From NCBI GenBank assembly GCA_020348065.1, contig CP070742.1:935458-978341 (forward strand): 42,884 bases of DNA, given 5' to 3'. Positions within the stretch are counted from its first letter, which is position 1; each line of letters opens with the position of its first letter. The translations under genes and the position numbers were made by a program. Shown here one piece after another: positions 5,153 to 30,140 of this stretch. The DNA is from Candidatus Zixiibacteriota bacterium (GTDB taxonomy: Bacteria; Zixibacteria; MSB-5A5; UBA10806). Below the pieces are notes generated by a model. It ran no database searches and was not told where the DNA came from. It worked only from the letters and a program-made list of their open reading frames with translations.

Positions 5153-6541
5153 ATGGACCTGACAACGCTATTGATACTGATCGGCATTATAGCCGTCATA
5201 ATAATTTTTGTACTTGTTTTGTTATCGAAGCAGTACCGTAAAGTTGGACCTAATGAAGTATTGATAATCTCCGGCGGCAGGAAGAGAACGGTTGTCGATC
5301 CGGACGGTACTAAAAGGAAGATCGGTTACAGAATGCATATCGGGGGCGGTACTCTGGTTTTGCCGTTCTTGGAATCGGCCCAGGTCCTCCCTCTGGAAGT
5401 ATACACCCTTGACCTTCAATCCAATGAGGCCATTACCGCTAAGGGGATACAGATAAACGCGTTCGGCCAGGCACAGATAAAAATAGGAGGAGATGAGAGT
5501 TCCATCCGCCTTGCCGCGGAGCAGTTCCTCGGTAAAGGTGAGGAAGGAATAAGAGACGTGGCCTCCAAAATACTTGAAGGCCATATGCGTGCCGCTCTGG
5601 GTACCATGTCGGTCGAGGAGCTTTTCCAAAAAAGAGGGGAATTCGCCAGTAATGTGAAACGATCCGTAGCCCAGGATTTTGCCAGAATGGGTCTCGACGT
5701 TCTCTCGTTTTCATTAAAAGACATCTCCGATACTTCGGGATATATCGAGGCGCTTGGTAAACCGCGTATCGCCGAGGCCAGGAGCGAGGCCGCCGTGGCC
5801 GAAGCAAACGCCGAGAAAGAGGCCACCATAAAAGCGGCCGATGCCAGAAAGGAAGCTGATATTGCGAAGTTCAAGGCCGAGTCCGAGATTGCCGAAGCTA
5901 ATCGTGAATATGAGTTGAAGCGCGCCGAATATCAGGCCGCAGTCAACGAGAAAAAAGCCGCCGCTGATCTTTCCTACGAACTTGAACGCCAGAAAATGAA
6001 CCAGAAACTCAAAAAAGAGGAATATCAGGTTCGCCTTGTTGAAAAAGATGAAGCGATCAAGCTTGAAGAGAAGGAGATACAGCGAAAAGAAAAAGAGCTC
6101 GAGTCGACGGTTAAAAAGCAGGCCGATGCCCGCAAGTACCAGGTTATGGCGGAAACGGAAGCGGAACAATACCGGCTGGGAGCGCAGGCCAAGGCCAGAG
6201 CGGAAGCCATAAAGCTCGAAGGCGAGGCGGAAGCGGAGATAATGCATAAAAAGGCGGAGTCGTATTCCGAATACAACCAGGCCGCGGTCTACGAAATGCT
6301 TATAAAAATTATGCCGGAACTCGCCCGCGCCGTATCCGAGCCTCTGAGCAAAGTCGATAAAATCGTAATGGTCGATTCCGGCAGCGGAGGCGGGGCTTCC
6401 AAAATAACGAAACAGGTTGCCGATGTTCTTGCCCAGCTTCCTGCCGTTGTGGAATCGCTTTCGGGCGTGGATCTCAAAAAGCTTATAGAAAAAATCCCGC
6501 AGTCTGACAAGAATGCCAAAAAATCCGGTGAGAAATCCTGA
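5153..6541 (+). CDS. floT: Flotillin-like SPFH/band 7 membrane scaffold protein
   Basis: This protein of 462 residues has one N-terminal membrane helix (about 5-26), then an SPFH/band 7 domain (about 30-195, including GPNEVLIISGG), then a long alanine/glutamate-rich coiled coil (about 200-365) with repeated AEA/KAEAE segments. The C-terminal tail contains a Gly/Ser stretch (SGSGGGASK). This order is that of bacterial flotillins (FloT/YuaG), which oligomerise into cages that organise membrane microdomains and help assemble membrane protein complexes. The ribosome binding site AGAAGGAG lies just upstream of ATG 5153. The fused aminotransferase gene begins 37 bases after the stop and may be cotranscribed. 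No NfeD partner gene, which often accompanies flotillins, is adjacent. Confidence 0.92.
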   Translation: MDLTTLLILIGIIAVIIIFVLVLLSKQYRKVGPNEVLIISGGRKRTVVDPDGTKRKIGYRMHIGGGTLVLPFLESAQVLPLEVYTLDLQSNEAITAKGIQINAFGQAQIKIGGDESSIRLAAEQFLGKGEEGIRDVASKILEGHMRAALGTMSVEELFQKRGEFASNVKRSVAQDFARMGLDVLSFSLKDISDTSGYIEALGKPRIAEARSEAAVAEANAEKEATIKAADARKEADIAKFKAESEIAEANREYELKRAEYQAAVNEKKAAADLSYELERQKMNQKLKKEEYQVRLVEKDEAIKLEEKEIQRKEKELESTVKKQADARKYQVMAETEAEQYRLGAQAKARAEAIKLEGEAEAEIMHKKAESYSEYNQAAVYEMLIKIMPELARAVSEPLSKVDKIVMVDSGSGGGASKITKQVADVLAQLPAVVESLSGVDLKKLIEKIPQSDKNAKKSGEKS

Positions 6542-6578: not shown

Positions 6579-8909
6579 ATGCTTTCAGATAGAGTTCAAC
6601 GAATCGGATTTTCTCCGACTTTGAGGATCTCCGCCAAGGCCGGGACCATGAAGGCGGAGGGTATCGACGTAATAGACCTTTCCGTCGGCGAACCTGATTT
6701 TCCAACGCCTGAAAACGTAAAAGCCGCCGGCCAAAAGGCGATTGATCAAAACCTCACGAAATATACTGCGAATTCGGGCATCGTCGCTCTCAGAAAGGCG
6801 ATTGCCAGGAAATTAAAAGAAGAAAACAATCTCGATTATTCCATCGATCAGATAATTGTCAGCTCCGGGGCGAAACAATCTCTTTATAACGCCTGTATGG
6901 CCATTTTGAATTCCGGAGACGAGGTAATAATACCGTCTCCCTATTGGGTCAGCTATCCCGAAATGGTCAATCTTGCCGGCGGATCATCCGTTTTTATCGA
7001 GACCAAGGAGGAAAACGGATTTCGTATTACTCCCGACGAATTATCGGCCGCCGTCTCGCCGTCCACGAAGGCGCTTATTTTGAACAATCCCTGCAATCCT
7101 TCCGGGGCCGCCTATACCAGGGAGGAACTGACCGAACTGGCAAATATCGTGGCCGAAGAGGGAATAATAGTTATTGCCGATGAAATCTATGAGAAGCTGT
7201 TATATGACGGTCTGGAATTTGTATCGTTTGCCGCCATCAGCGAAAAGATGAAATCACAGTCGGTTATTATAAATGGCGTTTCCAAAGCGTACTCCATGAC
7301 CGGATGGAGGCTGGGCTATGCCGCCGGCCCCAAAGAGATTATTGCCGCCATGGATAAAGTTCAGTCCCACAGTACCTCCAACGCCTCCTCCGTTTCTCAG
7401 GAGGCGGCGGTGGAAGCTCTTTCCGGTCCTCAGCACGAAATAGCAAGAATGCGCGATGAGTTCCAGATCAGGCGGAATTATATGCTCGATCGTCTTAAGA
7501 ACATAGAGGGAATTTCCTGTTACAAGCCGCGCGGCGCATTTTATCTATTCCCGAACGTCGAATCATATTTCAATAAAGAATACGAGGGTATGCAGATTCG
7601 GAATTCCTATGGATTGTCATATTATCTTCTCAAACACGCCCACGTGGCGGTTGTACCGGGCGAGGCTTTCGGTAAAGAGGGATTCATCAGGCTTTCTTAT
7701 GCCACCTCCATGAAGAATATCGAAACCGCATTGAACAGAATCTCATCGGCTCTGGCCAAACTGCATGTCACCAGGCTCGAAAAAGCGATATCACTGAGCA
7801 ACTTCGTAACCAGGCGAAAGGGCATGGTGGCAACGGAGACCGCTATTGGATCGGATCTGCGGGACGCCATCGTGGCCGAGGCCGAAGCGCATCTCTCTCA
7901 CCAGGGATATTTCGAATGGAATGCGAACATAAACGGTATAATAATTCAGCTCCGCACCAATCTCTCTCACCTGTATGATTTCTGGGTGGAAAACTGGTAC
8001 CCGGGCCAGCTTGAGTCCGATCTCGAGCCGCATGGTGTTATATACGCCGTCGGATGGGTACCGGGACGCGAGCCGAGGGCCTATTACCATAGCGGTTCCC
8101 GGACCGCTGTGCTGTTCAAATCGGCTTATTACGGCCAGCTCCGATCGCTGGCCATCGGCATGGCCGACGATATATCATCGGCAACGTCCGATCTGTTCTC
8201 CGTGCGTGGTCTGGCGCTCGATTTTGATGGTTACGGCGCCATAATGATCGCCCCCAAGGGCACCGGGAAATCGAGATTCTTCGCCGAGCTTCTTCGCCAT
8301 CCCAGGGCAAAAATTGTAACCGACGACGTGCTTTTCGTCAGGGTGGGTCTCGATGCCGTAGCGGACACGCCCGAAAGAAAATTATACATGCAGGCCAAAT
8401 TCGTCGAGTATTACCCCGATCTCGCGTATCTTTTCGATAAATCCAAATGCGAGAACGTCATCACCAGCAAAGAAGACTGCGATAACGGCCCCTGCGAGAG
8501 ATCCAGGGAATGCCGTCTGGATAAGGGAGCGCCGTTCTGCTACGAAGCCTCCTCCGTCTCCAGAGTGATGTTCGATCCCTACTGGATCAAGGGACCGGAA
8601 AAACACGCCAAGCGCACGAAACTGAAATGGTCGCTTATCCTGAAAAACGATCCCATAAGCCCCGCTGTTTCCGCCCCCGCTATTGACGAAGCGGTTTCCT
8701 ATTGCGAGGATGGCCTGTCGCAAACAGGCGCCATGAAATCCACGCCGTTTTTCAATCCCCATATATTATCCGACAGCTCCGATAAGAGAGAATCGCGAAA
8801 GCGGTTCTACAGAAAATTGTTCGAAAAGGCGAATCCATACTTCATAAATATCGGAGCGGCCGGCGCGGACGAAATAACGGCGCGGATGAAAAATATAATC
8901 GGCATTTGA
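6579..8909 (+). CDS. Aspartate-type aminotransferase fused to an HPr-kinase/PEPCK-like P-loop domain
   Basis: One uninterrupted frame of 776 residues encodes two unrelated enzymes. Residues 1-395 form a complete class I PLP aminotransferase of the aspartate type. It has NNPCNPSG 169-176, D201 and Y204 in ADEIYEKL, the PLP lysine K236 in SKAYSMTGWRLG, and R371 of the substrate carboxylate site in FIRLSYA. Residues 410-776 resemble the C-terminal kinase fold of HPr kinase or PEP carboxykinase: a beta-rich stretch, a P-loop at 558-565 (APKGTGKS) and an acidic pair D582-D583 in IVTDDVLF. An insert then carries five cysteines (C624, C634, C639, C645, C654). Usual aminotransferases stop near 390-400 residues. 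The ATG has AAGGGGAA upstream. The function of the second half is unknown; phosphotransfer or nucleotide sensing is only an inference. Assembly fusion of two genes cannot be excluded, but I see no remnant stop or internal ribosome binding site. Confidence 0.85.
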   Translation: MLSDRVQRIGFSPTLRISAKAGTMKAEGIDVIDLSVGEPDFPTPENVKAAGQKAIDQNLTKYTANSGIVALRKAIARKLKEENNLDYSIDQIIVSSGAKQSLYNACMAILNSGDEVIIPSPYWVSYPEMVNLAGGSSVFIETKEENGFRITPDELSAAVSPSTKALILNNPCNPSGAAYTREELTELANIVAEEGIIVIADEIYEKLLYDGLEFVSFAAISEKMKSQSVIINGVSKAYSMTGWRLGYAAGPKEIIAAMDKVQSHSTSNASSVSQEAAVEALSGPQHEIARMRDEFQIRRNYMLDRLKNIEGISCYKPRGAFYLFPNVESYFNKEYEGMQIRNSYGLSYYLLKHAHVAVVPGEAFGKEGFIRLSYATSMKNIETALNRISSALAKLHVTRLEKAISLSNFVTRRKGMVATETAIGSDLRDAIVAEAEAHLSHQGYFEWNANINGIIIQLRTNLSHLYDFWVENWYPGQLESDLEPHGVIYAVGWVPGREPRAYYHSGSRTAVLFKSAYYGQLRSLAIGMADDISSATSDLFSVRGLALDFDGYGAIMIAPKGTGKSRFFAELLRHPRAKIVTDDVLFVRVGLDAVADTPERKLYMQAKFVEYYPDLAYLFDKSKCENVITSKEDCDNGPCERSRECRLDKGAPFCYEASSVSRVMFDPYWIKGPEKHAKRTKLKWSLILKNDPISPAVSAPAIDEAVSYCEDGLSQTGAMKSTPFFNPHILSDSSDKRESRKRFYRKLFEKANPYFINIGAAGADEITARMKNIIGI

Positions 8910-10686: not shown

Positions 10687-10946
10687 TAATATAGTCGTGT
10701 AGGGAAGGCCTGTAAAACGGCAAAGACGCCGAAACTGAGATTGGTACGAGGATGTGCTACAAGAACTTGTTGAAAACCCGAAGATGAGATTTGGCCGGAT
10801 ACCGGGAACAGCTAATGGTCTTCACTTGAATGCTTGCATGGCAAAAAGGATATTCATAAGGTTGGGGGTCGATTGACTGTATCGGAATTGTTTAAAAATA
10901 TCGCTCTCCAGGGAATCAATTTGGGGTTTAGTTAGGAGTGTATCGT

Positions 10947-11714
10947 ATGTTGGACTTTACATATGAAATGTATCGATACTTATGTCGGAGTTTGCTCGAT
11001 GCTGGCTATCATCCCACGAAAATGGAAAATTACCCGGACTGCTTATTCGCAAATCGCATATTCTTAAGACATGATGTTGATCGATCTCCAAAACAAGCTC
11101 TGGAGATGGCAAAAATCGAGAAGGAATTCGGGATTGTATCTACGTACTTCTTCAGGACTGTCCCTCAAGTCTATGATAAGAGAATCATTGAGGAGATAGT
11201 TGACCTGGGTTTCGAGATCGGGTATCACTATGAAGTACTTGACAAGGCCCATGGTGATTATGCGAAGGCTATTGCACTTTTTGAACAGGAACTCACGGAG
11301 CTTAGAGCGCTATTTCCAGTCCGCAGCATATCCATGCACGGAGTTCCATTTAGTCCTTATGACAATCGGGATCTCTGGAAAAAGTATGATTTTCGCGACT
11401 ACGGGATTAAAGTAGCTGCTTATCACACTTTGGACTTCACTAAAGTGCGATACCTTTCTGATACCGGGAGAACCTGGGATACTGAAAAAAGCAATCTGAA
11501 AGATCTGATCTCCGATGCTCCTGAGGTTCAGTTGGCCGGGACCTGTACTTTGATCGGGTATTTGTCCTCTGAACTCTCGGATACCTGCCTCCTTATTCAT
11601 CCCAATCGATGGACTAATCAACCGGCAATCTGGATCTATAACCTGGGGTATGACATGCTGTCTAATGTCGCCAAGATGATGATCAAGAAATTCAGAGGAG
11701 TAAAGCGGTTATGA
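10947..11714 (+). CDS. Polysaccharide deacetylase-like (NodB-fold) protein
   Basis: This protein of 255 residues belongs to the carbohydrate esterase 4-like superfamily, metal-dependent N-deacetylases acting on N-acetylated sugars. The metal and catalytic signature is visible as RHDVD at 41-45, H94 in GYHYE and H131 in SMHG. There is no signal peptide, so it probably acts in the cytoplasm on a nucleotide- or lipid-linked sugar. I prefer ATG 10947 over GTG 10938 because TTAGGAG at 10931-10937 abuts the GTG but lies 9 bases before the ATG. The stop overlaps the start of the formyltransferase (ATGA), so translation is probably coupled. Deacetylating an N-acetyl sugar would expose the amine that a formyltransferase could then formylate. 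Codon use looks less GC-rich than in the neighbours, and the pair sits between IS remnants, which suggests transfer. Confidence 0.8.
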   Translation: MLDFTYEMYRYLCRSLLDAGYHPTKMENYPDCLFANRIFLRHDVDRSPKQALEMAKIEKEFGIVSTYFFRTVPQVYDKRIIEEIVDLGFEIGYHYEVLDKAHGDYAKAIALFEQELTELRALFPVRSISMHGVPFSPYDNRDLWKKYDFRDYGIKVAAYHTLDFTKVRYLSDTGRTWDTEKSNLKDLISDAPEVQLAGTCTLIGYLSSELSDTCLLIHPNRWTNQPAIWIYNLGYDMLSNVAKMMIKKFRGVKRL

Positions 11715-12541
11715 GCTATCAGCGGATCATCGTGATATGTACCGAAGGTATGCCGGCTACCATATTCATGAGGAAATTTCTTTCATCAAACGATCAGGTT
11801 ACTCATATCTATTTCTCCCATAGCTTGCGCGGCGGGTTTTTTCAGAAATTGGGCAAGGCGTATAAATTGCTGAAGAAGAAGAGCTGGCAGTTTTTGGCTT
11901 ACAAATTACTTGAGACCAGTATCTTTAACCTGCTTTGCAGGATAGTCAATCCGTCCGCTACTATCAGAGTTATGGCTTCCGAAAGGGGGATTAAGATTGG
12001 ACATGTAGCTGATGTCAACGATCCAACATTCATTAAGGAAATAGAGAAGACAGGAGGCGATATCCTCCTTTCTGTTTATTCTAATCAACTAATGTGCAAA
12101 GAATTGATTGATACTCCTAACAAGTATGCGATTAATGTGCACGGAACTCTACTCCCGGATTATCGAGGAGGAGCAGGATACTTTCACTACCTGGCAGACT
12201 CGCATTCACGGGCAGGAGCTACTGTGCATTTTATTGTACCGGAAGCCGATGCCGGCGACATTATCTGCCAGGAGGAGCTGCAAATTGATCCTGGCGATAC
12301 GGTCTTCTCGTTGCATGCCAGGTTATGCGAGATAGGAGCTCTTGCCGTTATAAAAGCGCTGGATCTTCTGCAGAGGGATGATTTCAAAGCTAAGAAAATT
12401 GAGAATATCCAGAAGAAACTATATTGGATGCCTAATCGCGCGGAGATGAAACGATTTCATAGAAAAGGCAGGAAATTATTTACCTGGAAAGTCTCTTTTA
12501 ATTATTTGCTTGGCAGGACGGAGACCGCCGCAAAAGCATAG
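11711..12541 (+). CDS. Formyltransferase-family protein (Fmt/ArnA-type fold), probably sugar N-formylation
   Basis: This protein of 276 residues contains a Formyl_trans_N domain. The catalytic triad of folate-dependent formyltransferases is visible as N142 and H144 in INVHGTLLPDYRGG and D180 in EADAGDII. The family uses 10-formyl-tetrahydrofolate to formylate an amine. It lacks the C-terminal domain of methionyl-tRNA formyltransferase, and the N-terminal half has a basic helical insert (about 45-75). It is therefore more likely an amino-sugar formyltransferase than Fmt. Its ATG overlaps the deacetylase stop by four bases, so deacetylation then formylation of the same sugar is the natural inference. 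Glycosyltransferase and aminotransferase genes usually found beside such enzymes are absent. The stop codon lies one base before copy B of the IS remnant. Confidence 0.8.
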   Translation: MSYQRIIVICTEGMPATIFMRKFLSSNDQVTHIYFSHSLRGGFFQKLGKAYKLLKKKSWQFLAYKLLETSIFNLLCRIVNPSATIRVMASERGIKIGHVADVNDPTFIKEIEKTGGDILLSVYSNQLMCKELIDTPNKYAINVHGTLLPDYRGGAGYFHYLADSHSRAGATVHFIVPEADAGDIICQEELQIDPGDTVFSLHARLCEIGALAVIKALDLLQRDDFKAKKIENIQKKLYWMPNRAEMKRFHRKGRKLFTWKVSFNYLLGRTETAAKA

Positions 12542-24281: not shown

Positions 24282-27200
24282 TTGTTATTGGCCTCCCCGG
24301 CGCAGGCGACTGTAGGCGATATTGAAGTTCCTTTTACGGTAAGTAAAAGGTTTTTAGTAAGAGGTGAGACCGGTCCCCCCTCCGACAGGTTTGGAATCAA
24401 TAAATTTGCCCCATCGTTTATAATAAAAATACCGGCGGATAAATACAGCCGCGATATATCATTCACCGAAGACGGGCGCTATATAATCTTCCAGGATTAT
24501 TATGGCCGTGATAAACTCAGCCCCTTTCAAATTATCGAATTGAAAAACTATATCGATCACAGGGTTTCTTTTGCCTTTACCGAATCCTGGAAAAAGGATT
24601 TGAGAGGCGAGCTGGGCAAAAAGGCAGGAGAAAGCGGTGACGCGGCGGTTCAGATCGATATCCCCTGGGAACCCCCTAAACTGGTCAAGGGCATTATAGG
24701 AGAAGGAAAATCAAATATCAAAGTCTCGGGTACGAGATCTATTTCCTTTTCCGGCCGGTCGGAGTGGGAGGACGGACTGGAGAATACGGGTACTTTCAAG
24801 CAGTCGAAATTTCCGACCCTCCAGATGGAGCAGAAATCCAGGTTTAAGGTTACCGGTACGATTGGCTCCAAGATCACGGTCGAGGTTGACCAGGATTCAG
24901 ACCGCCATACCGAACTGGCCAATACCATAAAACTCCGATATACCGGGGAAGAGGACGAGATTATCCAGACCATCGAGGCGGGCAATACCAACCTGGCCCT
25001 CCCTAACGCGCAGTTTATCGGCTATTCCGAAAACGTGCAGGGACTGTTCGGAATAAAAACGACGGCGAAAGTCGGCGACCTGAACATGACCATGATAACC
25101 AGCCAGGATAAAGGCTCCAACGAGAAAGCGTCGTTCAGCGCCGGGGCCAGCGATGACACCTTAAATCTCAGGGATTATCAATATCTCAAGGATCGTTATT
25201 TCTGGCTGGGAAGGGATTTCAATCCTTTCACCGATTCGCTGATCACTGTGGAACTCTATACCAATGGAGAGCCGACCGATATACGGGGAACCGCGGTAGT
25301 AAATCCCATCGACGGCACGCCCAATATTACCGTCGAGGAGCGATTGCGAGGGGAATACGAAGAAAGCCGCAATTTCAGGCAGTATGATCCCAACCAGTTC
25401 ACATTATACAGATCGAGTTGGTTTGTGGTACTGGACCAATCGCTACAGCAGAATCAGGTCCTGGGCGCATATATCAAATATGCTGACTGGTCCGATCCCG
25501 ATAATGTCGATACGGTTGAAATAGGAAATCTTTCGTATGTGCCCGATTCCACCAACCCCGACAGCGTCATGCTGGTTTTGAAGCTGATAAAAGACCAGAC
25601 TCCGGATTCGTCCTTTACCACCTGGGATTATATGTGGAGAAACGTTTACGATCTTCAGGCCCGCAATATCTCCGCGGAAGGATTTGTGTTCAGGATTTTT
25701 AAAGGGGCGGGAGGCCAGGAGGGACTGATTAATAATCCCGAAGATCAGGACGGTACCTGTTTTGTAACTATACTCGGGGTGGATTCTCTGAATAACAATA
25801 CCAATGCTCCGGGTCCCGACTGCCTGTTTGATTTCAACAACACGGTTATTGATGCCGGCCGGGGACACGTAATATTCCCCATTGAAAGGCCGTTTGATTT
25901 TTCGGGCCTGGACGACCGGGTGCCGGAGATATACACCGTGCAATCCAACCAGCAGGATTATTCTCAATACTGGATATATGTAAAAACGGCGGAAAGAGCA
26001 TCCAGCTTCTCGCTGGGACGGGCGAATATAATCGAAGGATCAGAAGTCGTAAAACTGGGAGACGGAACCTTGCTGCGCCGCGGTGTAGATTATAACATCA
26101 ATTATGATATCGGACAGATAACATTTTTATCTGAAGAGGCTTTAAATCCGGGCGCGAATGTTTCGGTAGATTTCGAATACGCTCCTTTTTTCCTGCCTGA
26201 AAAGAAAAGCCTGTTCGGTATAGCGGGGCAATACAGCCTTTTTAATAATTCCAATATATCGATGGCGGCCATGTATAGATCCGAGACCGTCACCGACCCC
26301 AGGCCCCGTGTCGGTCGGGAGCCGCGCAAGGGAATGGTATGGGATGGCAATTTCGCTTTTAATTTCGAGCCGGGAGTGATGACGTCGCTGGTTGACGCTC
26401 TTCCATTCATCGAGGCCGACGCCAATTCGGCGTTGAATTTTTCGGGCGAGATAGCCCAGAGCTTCCCCAATCCCAATACCAAGGACAGAGCCTATATAGA
26501 TGATTTCGAGGGCACCCGCAATTATACCGATATGTCCAATCGCCGCGGCATATGGACCAGATGTTCGCCTCCGTTGTCTGAAGATGGCACGAAGCTGTCC
26601 CTGGCCGACAGGGCGGATTCATGGTGGTATAATCCTTTTGATCCTATCAGAATAACCGAAATATGGCCTGAAAGGGAGGTTCAGGCGCAGGATGATCGTC
26701 AGGATGTCCTGTTTATCCATTATTTCCCCGACAGCGTCGCCGTTAATCCTGAATCATCGTGGGCCGGTATCATGAGACCTTTCTTTACCGGTCTGGCCGA
26801 TCAGACACAAACCAAGTTTATTGAATTCTGGTATAAACCCGATCCAGGTGTCACGTCGGGGGCGCCGATACTGCATCTGAATTTCGGTTTAATATCGGAA
26901 GATATCGACGGCGACGGTATCAAGGATACGGAAGACAGGCTTAACGGGCGTGAGGACGGTATTTTTCAATTCGAAGAGGACACCGGACTCGATGGATTAT
27001 TCAGCGTCAACGAACCGGGGTATTCGCCCGGAAATCCCGATCCCGGCGGCGATGATTGGGCGTACAATGATGACAATCCCAATGATTATTCCCGCATAAA
27101 CGGAACGGAAGGGAACAGAAATGATCCGGATCGCCGGGGAAGATTTGATACCGAGGATATTAACAACAACGGTTCTCTCGATACACAGGATGGCTATTTC

Positions 27201-30140
27201 GAATACGTCATAGATCTCAACGATCCCGACTACTATGTCGAAAGCACATCCACCGGATGGAATTTTATTCGGATTCCTTTTCAGGACCCCGAGGCGTTCA
27301 ATATCAGGGGGGCCGTAGGCTCCGCTGATTTTGCTCGGATAAATTACGCGCGCATGTGGCTCACCGGGTCGGCCGAACCGTACCTTTTACGGGTCGCTCT
27401 ATTTCAATTGGTCGGCAATAAATGGAAGGAACTGGAAATCAGTATGCCCGAGGGTGACACTCTAATCAGGGAAGAGAAATTCGAGATCACGGTAAAAAAC
27501 ACTCAGGAAAACTCGGATTATATTCCTCCGCCCGGGATCGCGGGGGAGCTTGACAGGAAGACCGGCATACGTGAAAAAGAACAATCCCTGGTTCTTAATT
27601 ATCAGAACCTGAAACCGGGTCATACAGCATCCGGTTACTGGCAGCTTTACCAGCCCGAGAATTATACCCTTTATAACAGAATCCAGATGTTTGTGCACGG
27701 GGATGCATCGACTATCGACAGCTCGGTCACATTTTTCTTCAGGATGGGTCAGGATACGCTAAACTTTTATGAATACAGGACTATACTCGAACCGGGGTGG
27801 TCGGAAAATAATGAAGTGGATATCGATTTTACCGAAATGACCAGGCTCAAATATGAAATGCAACAGAGGATACTCGAAGATACCACGGCAGTTGCCGACA
27901 CAATTTCGGGCAAATATCGGGTAAAAGGTAATCCGTCGTTATCTACCATAAAACGTTTCAGGATAGGCGTAATTGCCCATCCCCCGCCCGACAATGAGGT
28001 TAAACCGGAATATTTAGAGCCGGTCTCCGGCGAGGTCTGGCTTGACGAGTTGAGAGTTACCGATGTGAGAAAGGAATCGGATTTCGCCGGCCGCATGCAG
28101 GTAACGGCCAAGTTTTCCGATTTTTTCGACATAAGTCTTAATTACAGCAAAACGGGCGCGGATTTCTTTCCGCTCTCGGCGAAAGTCCCTTCGGGCGCGA
28201 CGGCTATCAGCAAATCCCTGAGATTCAGCACCAGGCTGGATAAAATTTTCCCGCCGTCTTTCGGGCTCAGTCTGCCGGTAACTTATTCCTGGCAGAACAA
28301 TCTTTCTCTTCCTCGATTGAAACCGGGATCGGATATTATTCTGGGCGATGACGTTCGCCGGGAAGAACGCAGCGAATCGACGCAGAAATCTTATTCAATA
28401 AACCAGTCTTTTAACAGAAACACCACTAATCCCTTATGGAATCTAACGTTAAATAGAATCAGGACAAGTTACTCGTATTCCGAATCAAACAGCAGATCCC
28501 CGGCAAATCCCGTTGGCAGACAGGAACGATACAAGGGCACCGGCAACTACGATCTTACCCCCCGCTCCAAACCCTCGATAAAACCGTTTTTCTGGACGAA
28601 ATATCTTTTCCTGCCCCGGTCGCTTTATGATACGCAACTTATGTATTTTCCCACAAGACTTACATTCAGCGGAGAAATTAACGGCAATAATTCTTATACC
28701 GTGAATCAGCGGGGAATTCCCACCTATACACGGACCAAGGATCTCTCTCTGAACGCATCGACGGGCCTGGGACTGTTCTCGTCTCTCAGATCCAATTATT
28801 CCATGGGGTCGATAAGGGACATTTCCGATCCGAAGAGGTTCAGGCTCAGCATCGATCCGTCGAAACTCAAGCTGGGGCAGGAAAGAGAATTTCAACAGAG
28901 GTTTGATACCAGTTATCAGCCGAAAATACTAAAGCTGTTCGATCAGAAATTTTCATTCAATTCCAGTTATTCGGAAAATTCGGATTTGAAGAGGAATCCC
29001 GATTCAACCCGGACGTCGATTATGCAGTCGGCCGCGCGGGCTGATGTTACATTTAAAATAACGGAACTTTTTCCGGGGGGCGGGGGAGGCAGAGGCACCC
29101 CGCGGAGGCCGGAGAAACCTCCGAAAGAACCGAACGGTGAGAATGAGGACTATGAGGACGATGAGGACGATGACGAGGGAAGAGATAGATTTTCGCCGCT
29201 GGATATTTTCGGCGGATTATTCAAGACCATTAAATCTATCAAACCGCTCAAAGGTTCTTATGTCAAGGATAAAAAACTGACCCGGCAGGGACTCCTGAGC
29301 CGCCCGTCATGGGAATACGTTTTCGGCATTTCGGAGAATCCCAAAGCGGAAACGAAGGCTACCACCGGACGAAATCCCAACCAGACGATTTATTCCGACA
29401 CTTATAAATTAGACAGTGGATTGAAACCCGGCAGGAATTTCGATTTTGGAATCGCATATAGCACAAAAACGACAATATCCCGGGCAACCACCGATCCGAC
29501 CAAGGCCAAGTCGGTGACCTTCCCTGATATATCCGTAAACATTTCCGGGCTGGAACAGTTGTCTTTTTTCAAGAAGTTTTCGAGGACCGCCACATATCAG
29601 TTCGTGTATTCCAAAAATATAGATGAAAACGGACGTGAGGATACGGGCGAGCTTTATAAGCGGGATACGGCGAGGAGATTTTCGCCTCTTATCGGCCTGA
29701 ACCTCACATTTAAAAACAACGTCAGGGCGACCATACGTTTCGACAAAACCAGGTCGAAAAGCGAGGACCTCAGGCAGACCGGTCAATCTAACAAAACTGA
29801 ATTCAGTTCAAGTACGACTTTTAAAATAAATATTACTTACAGCCTGACGGCGCCCAAGGGATTAAAGCTTCCGTTTTTGAGAAAAATAAAATTCGACAGC
29901 CAGCTTTCGATGTCGCTTGATATCGAAGTGGGTAAATCGAAAAGAGAATCCTTATTGAGCGGGACGAGGTCAATGGATGCGGATCGCAGCGATATAAAGG
30001 TGCAGCCGAGACTGACGTATCAGTTCTCGAGATCCATAACCGGCGGAATAAGGGCGCTCTGGAACGATACCAACGATAAAGTCCAGCAGAGAAAACATCA
30101 TATACGCGAACTGGGGTTAACCACGGAGATAAGATTTTAG
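24282..30140 (+). CDS. sprA: SprA-like giant outer-membrane translocon protein
   Basis: At least 1952 residues resemble SprA (Sov), the huge beta-barrel that forms the outer-membrane channel of type IX secretion in Bacteroidota. Recognisable are the family-typical AYIDDFEGTRNYTDMSN near 735 and MVWDGNFAFNFEPG near 685. The C-terminal half consists of alternating amphipathic beta strands rich in Ser/Thr/Asn and aromatic residues, ending in a terminal strand LGLTTEIRF. Two calcium-loop-like motifs (DIDGDGIKD near 876, DINNNGSLD near 957) and a Gly/acidic insert (about 1598-1636) stand out. The annotated start TTG 24282 cuts through a signal peptide: in-frame codons upstream to 24198 encode SSLAKIIVTVLLLASPAQA. 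The real start is therefore probably a rare codon such as CTG 24249 or ATT. The stop overlaps the M28 start by one base. Confidence 0.88.
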   Translation: MLLASPAQATVGDIEVPFTVSKRFLVRGETGPPSDRFGINKFAPSFIIKIPADKYSRDISFTEDGRYIIFQDYYGRDKLSPFQIIELKNYIDHRVSFAFTESWKKDLRGELGKKAGESGDAAVQIDIPWEPPKLVKGIIGEGKSNIKVSGTRSISFSGRSEWEDGLENTGTFKQSKFPTLQMEQKSRFKVTGTIGSKITVEVDQDSDRHTELANTIKLRYTGEEDEIIQTIEAGNTNLALPNAQFIGYSENVQGLFGIKTTAKVGDLNMTMITSQDKGSNEKASFSAGASDDTLNLRDYQYLKDRYFWLGRDFNPFTDSLITVELYTNGEPTDIRGTAVVNPIDGTPNITVEERLRGEYEESRNFRQYDPNQFTLYRSSWFVVLDQSLQQNQVLGAYIKYADWSDPDNVDTVEIGNLSYVPDSTNPDSVMLVLKLIKDQTPDSSFTTWDYMWRNVYDLQARNISAEGFVFRIFKGAGGQEGLINNPEDQDGTCFVTILGVDSLNNNTNAPGPDCLFDFNNTVIDAGRGHVIFPIERPFDFSGLDDRVPEIYTVQSNQQDYSQYWIYVKTAERASSFSLGRANIIEGSEVVKLGDGTLLRRGVDYNINYDIGQITFLSEEALNPGANVSVDFEYAPFFLPEKKSLFGIAGQYSLFNNSNISMAAMYRSETVTDPRPRVGREPRKGMVWDGNFAFNFEPGVMTSLVDALPFIEADANSALNFSGEIAQSFPNPNTKDRAYIDDFEGTRNYTDMSNRRGIWTRCSPPLSEDGTKLSLADRADSWWYNPFDPIRITEIWPEREVQAQDDRQDVLFIHYFPDSVAVNPESSWAGIMRPFFTGLADQTQTKFIEFWYKPDPGVTSGAPILHLNFGLISEDIDGDGIKDTEDRLNGREDGIFQFEEDTGLDGLFSVNEPGYSPGNPDPGGDDWAYNDDNPNDYSRINGTEGNRNDPDRRGRFDTEDINNNGSLDTQDGYFEYVIDLNDPDYYVESTSTGWNFIRIPFQDPEAFNIRGAVGSADFARINYARMWLTGSAEPYLLRVALFQLVGNKWKELEISMPEGDTLIREEKFEITVKNTQENSDYIPPPGIAGELDRKTGIREKEQSLVLNYQNLKPGHTASGYWQLYQPENYTLYNRIQMFVHGDASTIDSSVTFFFRMGQDTLNFYEYRTILEPGWSENNEVDIDFTEMTRLKYEMQQRILEDTTAVADTISGKYRVKGNPSLSTIKRFRIGVIAHPPPDNEVKPEYLEPVSGEVWLDELRVTDVRKESDFAGRMQVTAKFSDFFDISLNYSKTGADFFPLSAKVPSGATAISKSLRFSTRLDKIFPPSFGLSLPVTYSWQNNLSLPRLKPGSDIILGDDVRREERSESTQKSYSINQSFNRNTTNPLWNLTLNRIRTSYSYSESNSRSPANPVGRQERYKGTGNYDLTPRSKPSIKPFFWTKYLFLPRSLYDTQLMYFPTRLTFSGEINGNNSYTVNQRGIPTYTRTKDLSLNASTGLGLFSSLRSNYSMGSIRDISDPKRFRLSIDPSKLKLGQEREFQQRFDTSYQPKILKLFDQKFSFNSSYSENSDLKRNPDSTRTSIMQSAARADVTFKITELFPGGGGGRGTPRRPEKPPKEPNGENEDYEDDEDDDEGRDRFSPLDIFGGLFKTIKSIKPLKGSYVKDKKLTRQGLLSRPSWEYVFGISENPKAETKATTGRNPNQTIYSDTYKLDSGLKPGRNFDFGIAYSTKTTISRATTDPTKAKSVTFPDISVNISGLEQLSFFKKFSRTATYQFVYSKNIDENGREDTGELYKRDTARRFSPLIGLNLTFKNNVRATIRFDKTRSKSEDLRQTGQSNKTEFSSSTTFKINITYSLTAPKGLKLPFLRKIKFDSQLSMSLDIEVGKSKRESLLSGTRSMDADRSDIKVQPRLTYQFSRSITGGIRALWNDTNDKVQQRKHHIRELGLTTEIRF

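Follow-up and report, generated by a model that had tools for sequence, protein, structure and literature searches.

Aspartate, oxaloacetate and PEP stand at the junction of gluconeogenesis, the TCA cycle and amino acid synthesis. In a 42,884-nucleotide stretch of a Candidatus Zixiibacteriota genome (contig CP070742.1, positions 935,458 to 978,341 of the forward strand; 'the window'), one gene joins an aspartate-type aminotransferase (AAT) to a C-terminal domain (CTD) with a P-loop. Is this join genuine, and what might the second domain do for the first? In the initial annotation both halves looked functional, and the CTD was suggested to be a phosphotransferase of the HPr kinase (HPrK) or PEP carboxykinase (PEPCK) type.

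The two halves are an old fusion

The gene is one intact frame, as first described (Table 1), and AAGGGG, a ribosome-binding-like sequence, sits 7 bases 5′ of its ATG. Genome contigs were scanned with an alignment of the CTD only and 80 loci were kept; all 80 encode AAT and CTD in the same frame, in proteins of ~780–800 aa. These loci carry the labels Zixibacteria, Aminicenantes, KSB1, Calditrichota, Latescibacterota, Fischerbacteria, TA06 and others, the phylum labels of several metagenome bins being possibly unreliable. Among 58 genomes of relatives searched with the C-terminal half, 20 have the fusion. Identity to the window's copy is 92% in a congener, 70–66% within the family and ~47% within the order (overall range 92–45%), and pairwise distances of the AAT and CTD halves correlate (r 0.88). 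Between the window and the congener (L032), dN/dS is ~0.05 in each of the AAT half, the linker (residues 390–410) and the CTD.

The possibility that relatives carry two separate genes was raised at the outset; no relative has such a split pair. A stand-alone CTD of the fusion family was seen neither in the 80 loci nor in the relatives' genomes, and the AAT half occurs alone in three genomes (G007, at 61% identity, G132 and G157). A chance join, or an assembly or frameshift artefact, is excluded because all 80 loci of an independent collection are fused, the relatives at 92–45% identity are fused and dN/dS is ~0.05. The join is a true, old fusion, retained in several little-studied phyla.

Table 1. 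Positions of the fusion gene and its parts, the flotillin gene and an example of PEPCK2 (window positions unless a locus is named).
Feature	Position	Strand	Remarks
Flotillin/SPFH gene (Band_7 + Flot)	5153..6541	+	37 bp upstream of fusion; probable operon partner
AAT-CTD fusion gene	6579-8909	+	Single 776-codon open frame, zero internal stops
Class I (Ib-type) aspartate aminotransferase domain, residues 1-395; PLP lysine K236	6579..7763	+	PF00155, E 9e-83
Interdomain linker, ~residues 396-405	7764..7793	+	Low confidence at 401-405 in full-length model
PEPCK-fold CTD, residues 406-776 (~375-residue domain)	7794..8906	+	AF2, Foldseek, hhalign
P-loop APKGTGKS, residues 558-565 (= PEPCK GLSGTGKT)	8250..8273	+	Profile alignment; varies in relatives
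T-D-D step, residues 581-583	8319..8327	+	D583 aligns with PEPCK metal ligand D269
Cysteine-rich segment: C624, then C634-x4-C639-x5-C645-x8-C654	8448..8540	+	70-sequence alignment
PEPCK2 example	L055:6177-8006		PEPCK2 alignment A4

The N-terminal half is a complete aspartate-type aminotransferase

The AAT half is the complete class I enzyme that had been annotated: its full PF00155 domain holds the PLP lysine K236, invariant in 70 sequences, and the carboxylate-binding arginine R371, which is likewise invariant in the alignments, as are N173, D201, Y204, R244, K99 and W123. Over residues 1–395 it resembles the Ib aspartate aminotransferases (PF00155; PDB: 6f77, 6f35, 8wkj, 1j32, 1bjw) in its PLP lysine and aspartate-type active site; enzymes of this type, 8wkj and 6f77 among them, are its nearest PDB relatives. 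Known Ib members stop at ~390–400 residues, whereas the fusion protein goes on into the CTD; no C-terminal PEPCK-fold domain was found among the PDB and family matches to Ib aspartate aminotransferases. Since its active-site residues are conserved, the AAT half would interconvert aspartate and oxaloacetate, and it is very probably active as a transaminase.

The C-terminal half has the PEPCK fold

From about residue 398 onward no Pfam family reaches its cut-off in the fusion protein, and PF01293 gave no match above cut-off for the CTD in the members scanned. The AF2 model of the CTD is confident (pLDDT 91, pTM 0.90); in the full-length model the domains are confident (pLDDT 88) but their mutual placement is not (pTM 0.54; linker residues 401–405 below 50). 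A Foldseek search of the PDB returns E. coli PEPCK first [6com, E 1.8e-17, TM-score 0.71 by query length], nothing but PEP carboxykinases appears among the best 50 PDB matches, and the CTD profile matches PEPCK (hhalign prob 95.5, E 1.4e-8). With ATP-dependent PEPCK (PF01293; E. coli PckA, PDB: 6com, 1oen) the CTD has in common the fold, the P-loop, the D-D step and the ENV and NxG motifs.

The C-terminal domain of HPr kinase/phosphorylase (PF07475, TIGR00679; PDB: 1ko7) aligns weakly with the CTD, in the P-loop region and the acidic step. The structure 1ko7 matches the CTD profile at E 0.002 over the P-loop region only (~60 residues), and the weak Hpr_kinase_C and TIGR00679 matches in several fusion members are confined to the same region and stay below the curated cut-offs (best 30.4 bits against 33.3 for PF07475 and 34.1 against 240 for TIGR00679). 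The CTD is larger than the HPrK domain and the SxHG histidine is mostly R in it. Because the PEPCK match is domain-wide and the HPrK match is limited to the P-loop region, the CTD is PEPCK-like, not HPrK-like; the match in structure, which the initial annotation had named as a check, upholds its assignment of this half to the HPrK/PEPCK superfamily.

The two further weak matches in the 58-genome search come from a distant stand-alone CTD homologue of 575 residues in two zixibacterial genomes (L028:499-2232 and L029:499-2220). It is homologous over the full length of the CTD (hhalign prob 99.9 over 372 columns) but differs in having neither an AAT half nor the cysteine motif, in its intact GTGKST P-loop and large insert, and in its other neighbours. 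In the one genome looked at, it adjoins ABC transporter-like genes.

Most canonical PEPCK residues are changed in the CTD

Residue equivalences between CTD and PEPCK were taken from a profile alignment at ~13–22% identity. On this basis the PEPCK positions K212, K213 and H232 are occupied by R522 (R in 69/70), S523 (S in 56/70) and R543 (R in 65/70); K254 corresponds to the P-loop lysine K564 (K in 66/70) and D269 to D583 (D in 58/70, E in 12/70). The position of K288 is mostly P or Q in the 70 sequences, and that of R333 is variable, with R not kept. The CTD has therefore retained only the last of the PEPCK Mn ligands K213, H232 and D269, and neither K288 nor R333 of the active site. An equivalent of R65 could not be placed by profile alignment in the CTD or in PEPCK2, the divergent PEPCK described below. 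Alignment to E. coli PEPCK stops at residue 442 (NxG/NTG, E. coli 440–442) and 17 CTD residues remain, so the post-NTG segment (E. coli 443 onward, which holds R449) is mostly missing.

The P-loop and acidic TDD step that were first noticed are present, and the P-loop is altered in many relatives. At the Walker A motif the window's copy reads GTGKS; most Aminicenantes have GTKKT there, one zixibacterial branch has KRGS, and a deep acidobacterial group has G[ST]GRT, in which arginine replaces the P-loop lysine. In 40/69 fusion sequences a lysine takes the place of the Walker A glycine. A canonical P-loop persists in several lineages, including that of the window.

With K213, H232, K288 and R333 changed and the post-NTG segment nearly gone, canonical PEPCK activity of the CTD is doubtful, and as judged from these residues the CTD is unlikely to be a working canonical PEPCK. 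The view that both halves are functional fits the AAT half, whose catalytic residues are all there; for the CTD, with these losses and a variable Walker A motif, the proposed PEPCK/HPrK-type phosphotransferase activity finds no support. Intact PEPCK chemistry would instead belong to PEPCK2, a separate gene near the fusion in other genomes and out of view in the initial annotation because the window's genome lacks it. Many charged CTD residues, including R588, R600, K601 and R679, are invariant, so an active enzyme of new specificity would also fit.

ATP-dependent PEPCK also differs from the CTD in having neither a fused AAT nor a four-cysteine motif. The initial annotation had described a five-cysteine insert, and all five cysteines are present; the widely conserved set, however, is C634/C639/C645/C654 (all four in 62/70 fusion sequences), and C624 is part of the PEPCK 'ENV' motif. 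C624 is L in the deep acidobacterial group, where the four other cysteines persist, and C634 and C639 are lost in the zixibacterial branch with KRGS P-loops. Five fusion sequences have H at 639, with the last cysteine three residues later than usual, and this Cys/His exchange hints at a zinc-type site.

Flotillin and a second PEPCK often accompany the fusion

A flotillin gene lies directly upstream of the fusion on the same strand in 66/80 loci, mostly with a gap of 20–30 bp. In PADLOC neither the fusion nor PEPCK2 matched anything, and the window's flotillin matched only weakly (JetC); an anti-phage defence role for the fusion and PEPCK2 was rejected.

PEPCK2 is a divergent ATP-PEPCK gene of ~610 residues (PF01293 at 83–91 bits) found within the fetched stretch of 46/80 fusion loci, most often immediately downstream of the fusion or upstream of it in divergent orientation. 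Its product (alignment A4) is homologous to the CTD (hhalign prob 93.7), with which it co-occurs. Unlike the CTD it is encoded by a separate gene, lacks the cysteine motif and has the canonical catalytic residues intact, equivalents of K212, K213, H232, K254, D268, D269, K288 and R333 being kept in 14/14 sequences.

PEPCK2 was called in 17/20 fusion genomes and 0/38 genomes without the fusion in the Zixibacteria sample, counts that are uncorrected for shared ancestry; these calls are weak PF01293 matches of PEPCK2 type, two of them confirmed by direct comparison. Likewise uncorrected, 18 of the 22 PEPCK2 genomes in the Acidobacteriota sample have the fusion, and 0/15 PEPCK2-negative Acidobacteriota genomes tested have it. 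The remaining four PEPCK2 genomes comprise one cut at a contig end, two with AAT only (G132, G157) and one with neither half. The pairing of PEPCK2 and AAT without a CTD in G132 and G157 counts against a PEPCK2-linked module. G007, which has the AAT alone and is missing CTD, flotillin and PEPCK2, was counted in favour of one, as a joint loss of its parts. The window's own genome lacks PEPCK2 and has a canonical PEPCK at another site. PEPCK2 is also missing from 15 fusion genomes in a set of 30 that were selected mostly for having no PEPCK2 next to the fusion; it is therefore dispensable for the basic role of the fusion.

Several other observations were made on these genomes. Most zixibacterial genomes carrying PEPCK2 also have a canonical PEPCK, and another divergent PEPCK (~600 residues, 99–114 bits to PF01293) occurs in zixibacterial families without the fusion (G016, G046, G050, G054). 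A gene resembling aromatic amino acid/histidine ammonia-lyases, assigned by eye, lies within a few kb of the fusion in L042, L059, L061, L070 and L105. Within the window, positions 10938-12541 encode a formyltransferase domain with ~100 residues in front of it, below all curated NCBIfam cut-offs and preceded by a 258-residue frame without a family match. Positions 24282-30140 encode a 1952-residue SprA_N protein (PF14349), a gliding/type IX secretion component; the genome groups with Zixibacteria.

Possible roles of the CTD

The reading we favour, while thinking it somewhat more likely to be wrong than right, is that the aminotransferase carries a pseudo-PEPCK that senses or scaffolds, that the AAT half and, where it is present, PEPCK2 perform the catalysis and that flotillin holds the module at the membrane. 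The AAT half would exchange aspartate and oxaloacetate. The CTD would be attached to it by a flexible linker. It retains the PEPCK fold and a P-loop region, but most canonical residues for metal and PEP/oxaloacetate are gone, as is nearly all of the post-NTG segment, and it has acquired a motif of four cysteines that probably binds zinc. It may bind a metabolite or nucleotide, a partner protein, or both, and in this way control the aminotransferase or hold it in place. PEPCK2 could be that partner in many genomes, so that aspartate would pass through oxaloacetate to PEP in one assembly, held at the membrane by the flotillin encoded upstream. Gene order and co-occurrence are what link PEPCK2 and flotillin to the fusion; activity, direction, complex formation, metal, ligand and membrane role are what we infer. 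A more specific version, in which flotillin is the scaffold of a membrane-anchored aspartate-to-PEP assembly, the zinc-bound pseudo-PEPCK on the transaminase is paired with catalytic PEPCK2 and oxaloacetate is not released, seems to us improbable, at about one chance in five.

The fusion could instead be a bifunctional enzyme. Its CTD would then be a working phosphotransferase with a new specificity, for a compound that the AAT half makes or uses (oxaloacetate, aspartate or another dicarboxylate), and its active site would be rewired around R522, R543, the ERK motif and a zinc site. We consider this unlikely, if still a serious contender, both as to the activity and as to the rewired site. The many invariant Arg, Lys, His and Asp residues of the CTD, the acidic residue at the D269 position in 70/70, the P-loop lysine in 66/70 and the strong purifying selection would suit such an enzyme; the lysine in place of the Walker A glycine, the P-loop arginine of the deep acidobacterial group, the KRGS branch and the near-absence of the post-NTG segment would not. 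That the CTD tunes the AAT half of an allosteric aspartate/prephenate aminotransferase by binding PEP or an aromatic-pathway metabolite has a small probability. In its favour, bifunctional aspartate/prephenate aminotransferases (5wmh) are among the relatives of the AAT half, T14 and K99, which we take to be determinants of acidic substrates and prephenate, are present in it, and the lyase-like gene is nearby in five loci; a literature search on prephenate determinants found nothing. Yet T14 and K99 are expected in ordinary Ib aspartate aminotransferases as well, and the genes that recur beside the fusion encode flotillin and PEPCK2 and do not belong to the shikimate pathway. Least probable, and in our judgement very unlikely, is a reading close to the initial annotation, an HPrK-type protein kinase/phosphatase whose target in response to metabolites would be a protein, perhaps the AAT half itself: the weak P-loop-region matches to HPrK are set against a PEPCK fold matched across the whole CTD, the histidine before the P-loop strand that HPrK and PEPCK share is R in 65/70, and none of the genes noticed next to the fusion was an HPr-like partner.

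Significance of the fusion

Both superfamilies are known; the domain order, the cysteine-bearing pseudo-PEPCK and the flotillin/PEPCK2 context appear undescribed. No description of the AAT-CTD order, of flotillin/PEPCK/AAT operons, of PEPCK-like fusions or of HPrK fusions was found in the literature searched (open-access full text), in agreement with the initial statement that no enzyme of this order is known to have been described. Together with its flotillin and PEPCK2 context, the fusion is suggestive of an aspartate/oxaloacetate/PEP module that is new to the literature. Its retention in several uncultured phyla and its near coupling to PEPCK2 point to a form of control at the aspartate/oxaloacetate/PEP node that the papers searched do not describe, and the series of intact P-loop, altered P-loop and lost CTD offers a natural test of an enzyme fold turning into a regulator. 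If the membrane assembly is real, central carbon metabolism would contain a case of an enzyme paired with a pseudoenzyme.
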